NCBI GenBank assembly: GCA_027214385.1
Contig: JAPVXR010000001.1
Coordinates: 248,001-312,000 of the forward strand
Source: Cryomorphaceae bacterium 1068
GTDB taxonomy: Bacteria > Bacteroidota > Bacteroidia > Flavobacteriales_D > Cryomorphaceae
Length of the DNA: 64,000 nucleotides
Reading direction: 5' to 3'
Shown here: in pieces, positions 59,773 through 63,526 of the stretch
How positions within the stretch are numbered: the stretch's first letter is position 1
How the letters are laid out: every line of letters starts with the position of its first letter
The notes under the pieces: generated by a model
Told to the model about the DNA's origin: nothing
What the model saw: only the letters and a program-made list of their open reading frames with translations
The model's database searches: none
Translations under genes and position numbers: made by a program

Positions 59773-62022
59773 TTACAGGTTATCCAAAATGAAATTTGTC
59801 ATTTTGGTGTATAGGTGGTAGCGGGTATTTCCGCCGTAGATACTGTGGTTTTTATCGGGGTAAATAAATAAGTCGAATTGCTTATCGGCTTGTACCATTG
59901 CTTCAACCATTTCCATGGTATTTTGCATGTGCACGTTATCGTCAGCAGATCCGTGAATTAGCAGATAATCTCCTTCGAGCAAGTCTACGAAGTTAATCGG
60001 AGAGTTATCGTCATAGCCAGACGGATTTTCCTGTGGTGTGCGCATAAATCTTTCGGTGTAAACCGTGTCGTAAAATCGCCAGTTGGTTACAGGTGCCACT
60101 GCTATGGCCAATTTGAAATACTCGTGGCCTTTGGTTATCGCTAAAGAGCTCATATAACCTCCGTAGCTCCACCCCATCATACCAATTCGATCAGCATCTA
60201 TATAACCTTTCGAACCAAAGTGTTTCGCGGCCGATATCATATCCTCCGTCTCTAGCTTACCCAACTCCATGTAAGTGCTATGCTTGAAATCTCTACCGCG
60301 ATACATAGTGCCACGAGGATCGACTGAAATCACTACTATACCTTGTTGTGCAAGCATTTGGTGCCAAAAATAGTTGCTGCCACCCCAGGCTTTCTCAACC
60401 GTGTTTCGGCCAGGGCCACCATACACCATAAACATAACCGGATATTCTTTGGCCTCATCAAAATTTGGAGGCTTGATCATCCAATAGTTGAGTGCCTCAC
60501 CACTTTCATTTTCGAAAGTGTCAAATTCCTTTGGACTCAGTTTTCTTTCGGCCAATTTCGCTTTCAGCTCATCATTCATTTCCAAATCTCTGACGTGCTT
60601 TCCCTCGTCTGTGAAGAGAGCGATTTGATAAGGCAATTCAGCTCCTGATTCGTAATTGATAAAGTAATCGAAGCTAGTAGAAAAAGCCGCGTCGTTCATA
60701 TTGGCATTGTCTGTGAGCTCATTGAGTTGCTTTCTGTTGTCCTTTTCGGGAACTACTGCTTTATTTGATTTCTTGTACGTTTTGATCGGTTTCTTGAAGT
60801 CAGCGCTGAACACTGCTCTTTGAAGCGGCCCTTCTACAGCAGCCGAAAAGAAGATTTTTCCGTTGCGTTGGTCTACACCATAAAATTCAACTACTTCCCA
60901 TGGGCCCTTGGTCAATTGGGCAACTTCTTTTCCATCCGTGGTGTAGAGATAGATGTGGTTGTAACCATCTTTCTCGCTATTCCAAAAGAAATAATCTCCA
61001 TCCTCAGTAAAAATGAGGTTGTCATTGATTTCTACGTAGGTCTTGCTTTCCTCATGGTAAAACGACTCCGTCGGTATGAGGCTGTTTGAGTTCGCATCGG
61101 TTTTAGCGATCAAGAAATCCAATTCACTTTGATGGCGATTCATTCGCATAATGGCCAACCTATTGTCATTCTCTGTCCATTTTATTCTGGGAATGTATTG
61201 TTCAGCATTGGCATTGATGTCAATTTCTTTTAACTCTCCATCTTTAAGTGAGTATACGAAAATGCGCACCTCCGAATTTTTTTCACCCGCTTTAGGATAT
61301 TTGAATTCAAACTCTTCAGGATATAAACCTGAGTAGATCGCCATCTCGAATTCGGGAACTTCAGATTCGTCAAATCGATAGTATGCGATTTGCTCACCAT
61401 TTGGCGACCAATAAAAACCACGGTGGAAACTAAATTCTTCTTCGTAAACCCAATCTACGGCTCCGTTGATAATTTCATCTTCTTCACCATCTTCAGTGAC
61501 CTGAGTTTCTTCTCCTGATTCAAGATTGTAAATGAAGAGATTATTGTCTCGGACGAAGGCCACTTTGTTTTCAGTAGGGGAGAGGGAAGCAAGTTGCTGC
61601 TTACCTTTTTCGAAATCAGTAATGGGCTGTAGCTCTTTTGATTCGATGGTATAGATGAAGAAATTTGCCCGAGTGGAATGGCGATAGATGCGCTCCTCGT
61701 CAGTAGCCAGAAGTAATTTGCTCTCGTCATTGTTGAAACTGTATGATGAGAATTGGACAGGTTTGCCTTGGTAAAGGAGATTGGTAGATGATACCAAGGT
61801 GTCAATTGCTTCACCCGTATCATATGAATACTTTACTACTTGCCGCCCTTCATCGCTCACTAAACGGGTGTAGTGCAATCCATCGTCGGTACTTCTAAGC
61901 CCCGAAACATATCTAGGGCTGAATTCTCTTGATTTCCAAATATCCTCCAGAGTGATGGGAGCTTGTCCGAAAGCATTGAAAGTGAGGAAGAAAACAGCAA
62001 AGAGGCAGGAGATCCTATTCAT
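59773..62022 (-). CDS. Secreted dipeptidyl peptidase IV (S9B)
   Basis: 749 residues with a signal peptide (CLFAVFFLTFNAFGQ). The N-terminal beta-propeller (about 25-490) contains VDWVYEEEFSF, the double-glutamate motif that grips the peptide N-terminus in DPP-IV. The C-terminal alpha/beta hydrolase has GWSYGGY (S619), D695 (ADDNVH) and H726 (NHSIYGG), a complete triad. It removes Xaa-Pro dipeptides in the periplasm. The next two genes encode peptide carriers, so products are likely taken up directly. First gene of the operon. Confidence 0.95.
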   Translation of the reverse strand: MNRISCLFAVFFLTFNAFGQAPITLEDIWKSREFSPRYVSGLRSTDDGLHYTRLVSDEGRQVVKYSYDTGEAIDTLVSSTNLLYQGKPVQFSSYSFNNDESKLLLATDEERIYRHSTRANFFIYTIESKELQPITDFEKGKQQLASLSPTENKVAFVRDNNLFIYNLESGEETQVTEDGEEDEIINGAVDWVYEEEFSFHRGFYWSPNGEQIAYYRFDESEVPEFEMAIYSGLYPEEFEFKYPKAGEKNSEVRIFVYSLKDGELKEIDINANAEQYIPRIKWTENDNRLAIMRMNRHQSELDFLIAKTDANSNSLIPTESFYHEESKTYVEINDNLIFTEDGDYFFWNSEKDGYNHIYLYTTDGKEVAQLTKGPWEVVEFYGVDQRNGKIFFSAAVEGPLQRAVFSADFKKPIKTYKKSNKAVVPEKDNRKQLNELTDNANMNDAAFSTSFDYFINYESGAELPYQIALFTDEGKHVRDLEMNDELKAKLAERKLSPKEFDTFENESGEALNYWMIKPPNFDEAKEYPVMFMVYGGPGRNTVEKAWGGSNYFWHQMLAQQGIVVISVDPRGTMYRGRDFKHSTYMELGKLETEDMISAAKHFGSKGYIDADRIGMMGWSYGGYMSSLAITKGHEYFKLAIAVAPVTNWRFYDTVYTERFMRTPQENPSGYDDNSPINFVDLLEGDYLLIHGSADDNVHMQNTMEMVEAMVQADKQFDLFIYPDKNHSIYGGNTRYHLYTKMTNFILDNL

Positions 62023-62229
62023 TAAAAGTAACTTACAGAGTATGGGCCCCGAATATAGAAAAAAGCAACAAACCTTTTAATGTGAGAGATCGTTGCCAAT
62101 ATTGTTTTTATTGCCCAATTGAGGACATAAATTGTTCTAAGGGTGTTTTTAAGTGTTTTATAAATCAATGTAAAACAGATTGATGTGGTACCTCAATAGC
62201 TCTGTGAATTATTTTTTTCGTCGATTGAA

Positions 62230-62260
62230 TTGCAAAAGCAAAAAGAATCTGCTATATTTG
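62230..62260 (+). promoter_or_regulatory. Consensus promoter of the intergenic RNA
   Basis: TTG (62230-62232), 20-nt spacer, TATATTTG (62253-62260): full match to the Bacteroidota vegetative promoter. Expected start 62265-62267. It points rightward into a region with no gene. Confidence 0.75.
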
Positions 62261-62265
62261 AGTTA

Positions 62266-62404
62266 CTTGGAAAAGACACTTAGGGACTACCTCCTTATCA
62301 TTCTTTCATCGTCTCACTCTAAATTTAGTCTCTAAGTTTTCCAAGATAGTTTTTCTGTTTCATAGCCTCGAAAGCTCTTCAAATGTGAAGAGCTTTCGAG
62401 TTTT
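62266..62404 (+). ncRNA. Candidate small RNA with long stem and pyrimidine-rich anti-Shine-Dalgarno loop
   Basis: The stretch 62023-62431 holds no gene but a complete rightward transcription unit. The predicted RNA begins at the base of a stem: CTTGGAAAA (62266-62274) pairs with TTTTCCAAG (62337-62345), and after a GACA bulge CTTAGGGAC (62279-62287) pairs with GTCTCTAAG (62328-62336): 18 pairs in all, one of them G-U. The 40-nt loop (62288-62327) has a single G and contains ACCTCCTTA (62289-62297), the same nine bases as the 3' end of E. coli 16S rRNA. A 15-bp terminator follows. No start codon opens a usable frame. It may pair with ribosome-binding sites or bind a protein; resemblance to 6S RNA was considered, but no apical hairpin is seen. 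Confidence 0.6.
62367..62404 (+). terminator. Terminator of the intergenic RNA
   Basis: CTCGAAAGCTCTTCA, loop AATG, TGAAGAGCTTTCGAG: a perfect 15-bp stem followed by TTTT. Leftward, the hairpin is followed by GCTATG without a T run, so it acts for the rightward transcript, not for the leftward permease gene ending at 62432. Confidence 0.88.
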
Positions 62405-62431
62405 GTAATAGTTTGTAGTTGAGATGGATTG

Positions 62432-63526
62432 CTATCTTTCTTTGATTCGTTGGAGCCAGCGGAATTCTTTATTCATTTCCTTGAATACTATTCTGATAAA
62501 TGAATAGACAGGAATAGCCGCAATCATCCCTGTAACTCCGCCAAGACTTCCTGCTACCAAGATCACAATGAATATTTCAAGAGGGTTGGCGTTGATACTA
62601 TTTGAAAAGATAGCAGGCTGAAAGATATAATTGTCAATTAATTGAGTGGTTGCGAAAACGATTAACAGTCCGATAATCTTTGGTTGGATTACATCAATAA
62701 AACTTGCATCGATATTATTGGCGACCAGAATGAAAATCCCGAATGATGCGCCGATCCAAGGACCTAGGTAGGGAACAAGATTCACTATTCCCGTGAAAAC
62801 GGCAATTAGCAATGCGTTTTCAACTCCTACAATTTGTAGACCTATGAAGATGCAGGTGGAAATAGCGATTACTTGAATTAAAAGTCCTAGGAAATATCGA
62901 GATAATGTGCTTCGTGTATTGCGGAATATGCTTTCTACACTTTCTTCTTTTGATTTTGGAACAAGCTCCATAGCCAATTCGGTGAGCATATTTCGGTCTT
63001 TCAGAAAGAAGAAAGACATAAAGGCAACCGAAAAAACTGCAATAAGTAGATTTCCCAAGGCACCAACCAGAGAATTCAAGAAATTTGGTAAGGCGCTTAT
63101 TTCCAGACCATCGAAAAGATGTTGGATGATGTCGTTTTCGCTGACTTTTGCCTCCTGATTGAGATTTACGCGGTCTACCATTTGATTGAACCATTCTAAC
63201 CCAGGACTTAGAGCCGCTTTTACTTGAATCAGATCAATCTTGGTCAAAAGCTGGGCCTCAACAAAAATCATAGGTACGAAGAAGGATAAAAGCCCCCCGA
63301 GTATTCCGAATATGCCGAAAAGTGTGATTGCCGCTTTGACGGCATCCGGAAGATGTTTTCCTCTGACTTGAATCCGTTCAAGAAGCTTAAACAATGGTCT
63401 TCCGATTAGCGCTACAATCAGAGATAGTAGAATGTAAATAATCACAGTAGCGGACTCATAGATGAGCCACCCGATTAAGAACAGTAAGCCTAATACAGCG
63501 ATAAATCGTAAAATTCGCCTTTCCAT
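62432..63526 (-). CDS. AI-2E family transporter (PerM/YdiK-like permease)
   Basis: 364 residues with about eight helices; two at the start (FIAVLGLLFLIGWLIY, VIIYILLSLIVALIGRP), a soluble loop of about 90 residues (VKAALSPGLEWF...SALPNFL), then helices including VNLVPYLGPWIGASFG, the family's 'vP.iGp.iga' motif, and GGVTGMIAAIPVYSF near the end. The name comes from a proposed autoinducer-2 export role; many members instead act as Na+/H+ or unknown carriers. It starts 3 nt after the carotenoid-like gene and is likely co-transcribed. Confidence 0.85.
   Translation of the reverse strand: MERRILRFIAVLGLLFLIGWLIYESATVIIYILLSLIVALIGRPLFKLLERIQVRGKHLPDAVKAAITLFGIFGILGGLLSFFVPMIFVEAQLLTKIDLIQVKAALSPGLEWFNQMVDRVNLNQEAKVSENDIIQHLFDGLEISALPNFLNSLVGALGNLLIAVFSVAFMSFFFLKDRNMLTELAMELVPKSKEESVESIFRNTRSTLSRYFLGLLIQVIAISTCIFIGLQIVGVENALLIAVFTGIVNLVPYLGPWIGASFGIFILVANNIDASFIDVIQPKIIGLLIVFATTQLIDNYIFQPAIFSNSINANPLEIFIVILVAGSLGGVTGMIAAIPVYSFIRIVFKEMNKEFRWLQRIKER

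Follow-up and report, generated by a model that had tools for sequence, protein, structure and literature searches.

The window, i.e. the whole stretch of 64,000 nucleotides that was analysed, holds a rightward unit in the gap between two leftward genes, and the question arises whether this unit encodes an RNA of its own and, if so, what such an RNA might do. The first-pass annotation had described an orphan with a promoter, a stem, a large loop and a terminator, and had proposed that the loop repeats the 3' end of the 16S rRNA. Direct reading of the sequence confirmed a self-standing unit with its own predicted promoter and terminator: a TTG (62230-62232) is separated by exactly 20 nt from TATATTTG (62253-62260), as had been claimed, and the perfect 15-bp hairpin followed by a T run is present as well (Table 1). 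The long hairpin is also real, although it comprises 20 bp (8 outer and 12 apical) with a 4-nt bulge confined to the 5' side rather than 18 bp, and its loop, in which the single G could be validated, spans 36 nt instead of 40 nt. The stem starts 5 nt past the -7 box. The fold energy is -46.5 kcal/mol compared to -24.8 kcal/mol in shuffles, none of which (0/200) was equally stable, and the 21-nt linker region has little structure at most, with a 4-bp helix in the minimum-energy fold. The sole AUG is located at position 62383 within the terminator loop, with none earlier in the RNA, and a coding role is therefore unlikely. Its recurrence at further loci and in related genomes places the unit far beyond chance.

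Table 1 Features of the intergenic unit and of the genes next to it, in window coordinates.
Feature	Position	Strand	Sequence or basis
Dipeptidyl peptidase IV (DPP-IV) gene, divergent neighbour	59773..62022	-	PF00930 (5.4e-102), PF00326
Promoter, Bacteroidota -33/-7 type	62230..62260	+	TTG, 20 nt, TATATTTG; read directly
Predicted small RNA transcript, ~140 nt	62266..62404	+	Promoter, fold z -6.5, recurrence in paralogue and relatives
Main hairpin, 5' strand	62266..62289	+	Minimum-energy and centroid fold
Outer arm	62266..62273	+	CTTGGAAA
Bulge	62274..62277	+	AGAC
Apical arm	62278..62289	+	ACTTAGGGACTA
Apical loop, 36 nt, single G	62290..62325	+	Holds anti-SD-like CCTCCTTA (unconserved)
Loop box	62302..62320	+	TCTTTCATCGTCTCACTCT; invariant among 10 aligned copies, 16-nt core in 13/13
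Main hairpin, 3' strand	62326..62345	+	TAGTCTCTAAGT and TTTCCAAG; arm permutation test, compensatory changes
Linker box	62346..62366	+	ATAGTTTTTCTGTTTCATAGC; invariant, at most weakly structured
Intrinsic terminator	62367..62404	+	Perfect 15-bp hairpin (62367-62400) plus TTTT
AI-2E family transporter gene, convergent neighbour	62432..63526	-	PF01594 (2.8e-40)

The genome of the window (G000) contains a second copy of the element (G000:C3:384974), which is 90% identical over 109 nt and has a different stem. When 399 genomes of the order were scanned for the 16-nt core of the loop box, matches were obtained in seven of eight genomes from the window's family, plus two strays (G383 and G396), which were rejected because the structure is missing there. 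The seven Cryomorphaceae genomes together carry 13 copies with the loop box: three in G002, two each in G000, G001, G004 and G005, and one each in G003 and G007. The eighth genome, G006, is represented by an assembly in which the match to the AI-2E gene stops at contig position 3, before the 3' end of the gene (L287); the expected RNA site is thus not part of this assembly, and a loss of the RNA in G006 cannot be read from it. All 13 copies have a TAnnTT[TCA]G box upstream of the stem, at a distance of 3-7 nt in 11 of them, and the terminator is present in the full copies. The named loci assign the RNAs to Cryomorphaceae, including Cryomorpha ignava (G005), and the viral contigs searched contained no match to them. 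That no named family fits, as the first-pass annotation had suspected, agrees with our Rfam search, which included the 6S-Flavo model (RF01685): at gathering score, Rfam 15 recognised only a tRNA in the window, and the loci L002, L053, L056 and L011 were likewise without a match. The box sequences were not found in the literature searched either. From the comparison of the copies we conclude that the predicted RNA belongs to a small-RNA family of Cryomorphaceae that has not been described before. As judged from sequence, the small RNA is genuine and independently encoded, kept across the family and often present in at least two copies; the RNA family is new, and its kind is already known.

The stem sequences are almost wholly divergent between the copies, and in an alignment (A1) generated with MAFFT and folded with RNAalifold the divergent stems were misaligned, with no pairs predicted in the main stem. 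We therefore replaced this approach by an arm-permutation test and by gap-free comparisons of three pairs of relatives. When each 5' arm was paired with each 3' arm across the 13 copies, pairing with the own arm reached a mean of -24.2 kcal/mol compared to -10.8 kcal/mol with foreign arms; the own arm was the best partner in 12/13 rows and columns, and the own-arm sum was equalled by none of 100,000 permutations. In the gap-free pairs G004a/G002a and G007/G003, three and four base pairs, respectively, were changed on both sides and are still paired, with 0-3 broken base pairs, and the window's paralogue and G001b differ by four one-sided changes that keep the pairing. The covariation between the stem arms that had been anticipated for a genuine structured RNA was thus indeed found, both as own-arm pairing and as compensatory base-pair changes. 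Several compensatory pairs were also detected in the terminator hairpin. According to the predicted folds, a hairpin with a long loop is present in all copies, mostly with an outer helix, a 5' interruption and an apical helix, and the loop box is unpaired in every copy. This covariation signal is strong enough to warrant a new Rfam entry.

The conserved parts of the element are two boxes that had been overlooked before, namely one in the loop (62302-62320) and one in the linker (62346-62366). In the ten aligned copies, neither the loop box TCTTTCATCGTCTCACTCT nor the linker stretch (A)GTTTTTCTGTTTCATAGC (62348-62366) varies, and the pre-terminator sequence TTTCTGTTTCATAGC is unchanged in 14 sequences, among them RNAs that differ in their 5' parts; TTTCAT is common to both boxes. 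The two boxes also occur separately: two loci of G002 (L031 and L036) have the loop box without the linker box, and four loci (L010, L011, L174 and L175) have the linker box without the loop box. Two of the latter (L010 in G019 and L011 in G008), which belong to another family of the order (f2), represent a separate intergenic RNA with its own promoter box TACTTTTG, a different 5' hairpin, whose loop is CCACCCCCC, and GTTTTTCTGTTTCATAGC as the shared pre-terminator box, located between FAD-oxidase-like and LolA-like genes (names assigned by eye only). In C. ignava, TTTCTGTTTCATAGC is followed by a terminator hairpin, again without a loop box, at L174 (G005:C31, minus strand, ~6502) and L175 (G005:C22, ~1745). 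Outside Cryomorphaceae, the boxes were seen only in f2; beyond these two families, the loci examined among the matches of a covariance model of linker and terminator (R1) were mostly generic terminators or unrelated repeats.

Two further sequences were observed in the course of these searches. Just past a terminator-like hairpin, CTTTCCTGTTTCATAGC is located at L135 (G000:C3:224287, minus strand) and at L174 (minus strand, ~2083), and it may be a version of the linker box that has degenerated or that is carried on an mRNA. In family f9, two congeneric genomes (G031 and G041; loci L186 and L188) share a near-identical stretch, ACGATAGTTTTTAGTTTTTCAGTTTAAGCCATTAAGTCCC, with a terminator hairpin; it has no sequence kinship to the Cryomorphaceae RNAs.

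Stems that vary and yet pair, together with two exposed stretches that are identical letter by letter, indicate that the RNA is very probably a regulator that has not yet been named. If paired stems vary freely while exposed boxes are invariant, the boxes are expected to contact something conserved, and pairing with mRNAs is the commonest use of such boxes. We consider it somewhat better than even (about 55%) that the element encodes a small RNA that acts in trans by pairing of its two boxes with other RNAs, the pairing step being inferred. An independent transcription unit is indicated by the predicted promoter and terminator, with the -7 box in all copies, and a conserved exposed seed by the two invariant boxes, which are predicted to be mostly unpaired. 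The surroundings of the window-type copies are kept as well: as recognised by eye, DPP-IV and AI-2E genes flank the RNA in G002, G003 and G005, DPP-IV is next to it in G007, and AI-2E is next to it in G001 and G004, where the sequence examined ends near the RNA on the other side. The neighbours of the AI-2E gene differ in f2. The housekeeping-type promoter would give rise to an RNA of ~140 nt ending at the intrinsic terminator. As suggested by predicted structure and conservation, the variable, covarying stem would serve as a scaffold presenting the loop box UCUUUCAUCGUCUCACUCU, and the second box, (A)GUUUUUCUGUUUCAUAGC, would be left largely single-stranded between hairpin and terminator. Most likely, the two G-poor boxes would act as seeds that pair with purine-rich mRNA stretches, resulting in post-transcriptional regulation in trans. 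The UUUCAU in both boxes is complementary to a start AUG-AAA, and ATGAAA is the commonest start of the called genes (119/668). More speculatively, the presence of the boxes on several RNAs and promoters might make the same targets reachable under different conditions.

Pairing was assessed at 1,938 gene starts, 1,309 from G000 (~1.6 Mb) and 629 from G002 (~0.8 Mb), in comparison to 40 shuffled boxes; this test is weak because starts were called as the first ATG and only these ~1.6 Mb and ~0.8 Mb were covered. At a cutoff of -9 kcal/mol the loop box showed a slight, non-decisive excess, which was reached by 2/40 shuffles in G000 and 4/40 in G002 and became weaker at stricter cutoffs. The linker box paired no better than its shuffles at the starts of both genomes, conserved pairing across 316 orthologue pairs did not exceed shuffles for either box, and no single target stood out against shuffled boxes among the 1,938 starts. 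The candidate start site in G002 with -22.3 kcal/mol was rejected as not significant, given that 10/60 shuffles reach that energy. A single target with long complementarity was rejected as well, since 17-nt complements with up to three mismatches occurred in near-control numbers and at mid-gene sites. With RNA genes excluded, complements of the boxes (up to three mismatches) were barely above the control and mostly inside genes. Near complements are found at no other site common to all genomes, which argues against ribosomal RNA as the partner. In two species of one genus (L130 in G003 and L124 in G007), a linker-box complement with two mismatches lies in the 3' region of an rpoD-like gene.

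The main rival to pairing is a protein that recognises the invariant boxes and that the RNA presents, stores or titrates, for example a chaperone, a cold-shock-type or Rho-like pyrimidine binder or another RNA-binding protein of Flavobacteriales; the linker box before the terminator would then be a landing site common to several RNAs. Pyrimidines prevail in both boxes, and 15-19 nt are kept without change, an exact invariance that exceeds a typical pairing seed and fits protein recognition equally well; moreover, the linker box is shared by RNAs with differing 5' parts and lacks a pairing excess at gene starts. However, no candidate protein can be named, and profile searches of G000, G002, G005 and G008 for two known partner families of small RNAs detected neither RRM_1 (PF00076; the Bacteroides control was positive) nor Hfq (PF17209; five controls were positive). 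With pairing tests that are not positive and the two known binder types undetected, protein recognition of the boxes stays a serious alternative, to which we assign a real but clearly smaller chance. Somewhat more doubtful still is a modular Cryomorphaceae system, in which loop and pre-terminator boxes are shuffled among RNAs and read by a partner independent of Hfq and RRM proteins; if this were true, the boxes themselves would be a new RNA recognition code.

The remaining explanations are improbable. A 6S-like RNA, whose hairpin would mimic an open promoter and bind RNA polymerase, fits the long stem with a big unpaired region and the housekeeping-type promoter, and 6S-Flavo was not found elsewhere in the genomes, though the positive controls gave no signal either. 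But the unpaired region is predicted to be an apical loop and not a bubble between two helices, no 6S or 6S-Flavo match was obtained for 62100-62520 even at E 10 with permissive filters, and the loop sequence does not vary, the copies are scattered and the boxes can occur apart, so that we regard this as quite improbable. Slightly less probable again is a cis element of the neighbours, such as a mere terminator or an antisense 3' end of the AI-2E gene. At loci of the window type the RNA is indeed convergent with this gene. Yet the second type and further copies, which have the same boxes, adjoin unrelated genes; in G000 the second-type copy precedes an Exo_endo_phos gene, and in G001 it lies next to a similar one. 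Moreover, the RNA has its own promoter, and no T run follows the hairpin on the minus strand. The anti-Shine-Dalgarno role put forward by the first-pass annotation, in which ACCTCCTTA in the loop would bind ribosome-binding sites by pairing or imitate the 3' end of the 16S rRNA, is the least credible of all. This stretch does occur at 62289-62297, and among shuffled loops ACCTCCTT appears in just 0.7% and CCTCC in 11%. However, the window copy is the only one that has it, at a site preceding the loop box; neither the same-genome paralogue nor any relative carries it, and the other AI-2E-adjacent copies have just TCTCC, CCCC, CCC or TCC at this place; the part of the loop that is kept is TCTTTCATCGTCTCACTCT, further downstream. 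Shine-Dalgarno motifs are also no commoner than chance upstream of the 1,309 called G000 starts (AGGAG 18 vs 13 shuffled, GGAGG 6 vs 7), and we rejected this role.

With a trans-acting, base-pairing small RNA as the preferred reading, the two invariant exposed boxes offer a testable handle on RNA regulation in such bacteria, in four genomes of which profile searches detected neither Hfq nor RRM proteins, and C. ignava is a named strain suited to testing the RNA family. RNA regulation has been studied in gut Bacteroides, whereas little is known of environmental Flavobacteriales. Enterobacterial Hfq-dependent small RNAs have a U-rich single-stranded stretch directly before the terminator hairpin. 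A U-rich stretch precedes the terminator of the Cryomorphaceae RNA as well, but its invariant part comprises 15-19 specific letters, and Hfq was not detected. The 6S-Flavo RNA (RF01685) is likewise a small structured RNA of Flavobacteriia; it differs in that neither the gathering score nor a search to E 10 gave a match, and in the apical loop of the RNA described here. Rfp18 of Flavobacterium psychrophilum is a structured intergenic small RNA of Flavobacteriales that is reported to be conserved in the genus Flavobacterium and to pair by its third stem-loop (PMC9723704); compared by description, the boxes of the Cryomorphaceae RNA were detected in Cryomorphaceae and f2 only. The FopS RNAs of Bacteroides thetaiotaomicron are ~65-70 nt long, occur in 14 copies and carry their seed in the 5' region; they are bound by RbpB, an RRM protein, and act as repressors at susC starts (PMC11697453). 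Compared by description, the Cryomorphaceae RNA is predicted to be ~140 nt long, has one to three copies per genome and carries its boxes in the apical loop and the linker; FopS and GibS have an RRM-1 partner of the RbpB type, while no RRM protein was found in G000, G002, G005 and G008. What it shares with FopS is the phylum Bacteroidota, several copies per genome, housekeeping-type promoters and an invariant exposed stretch in an otherwise variable RNA (PMC11697453).
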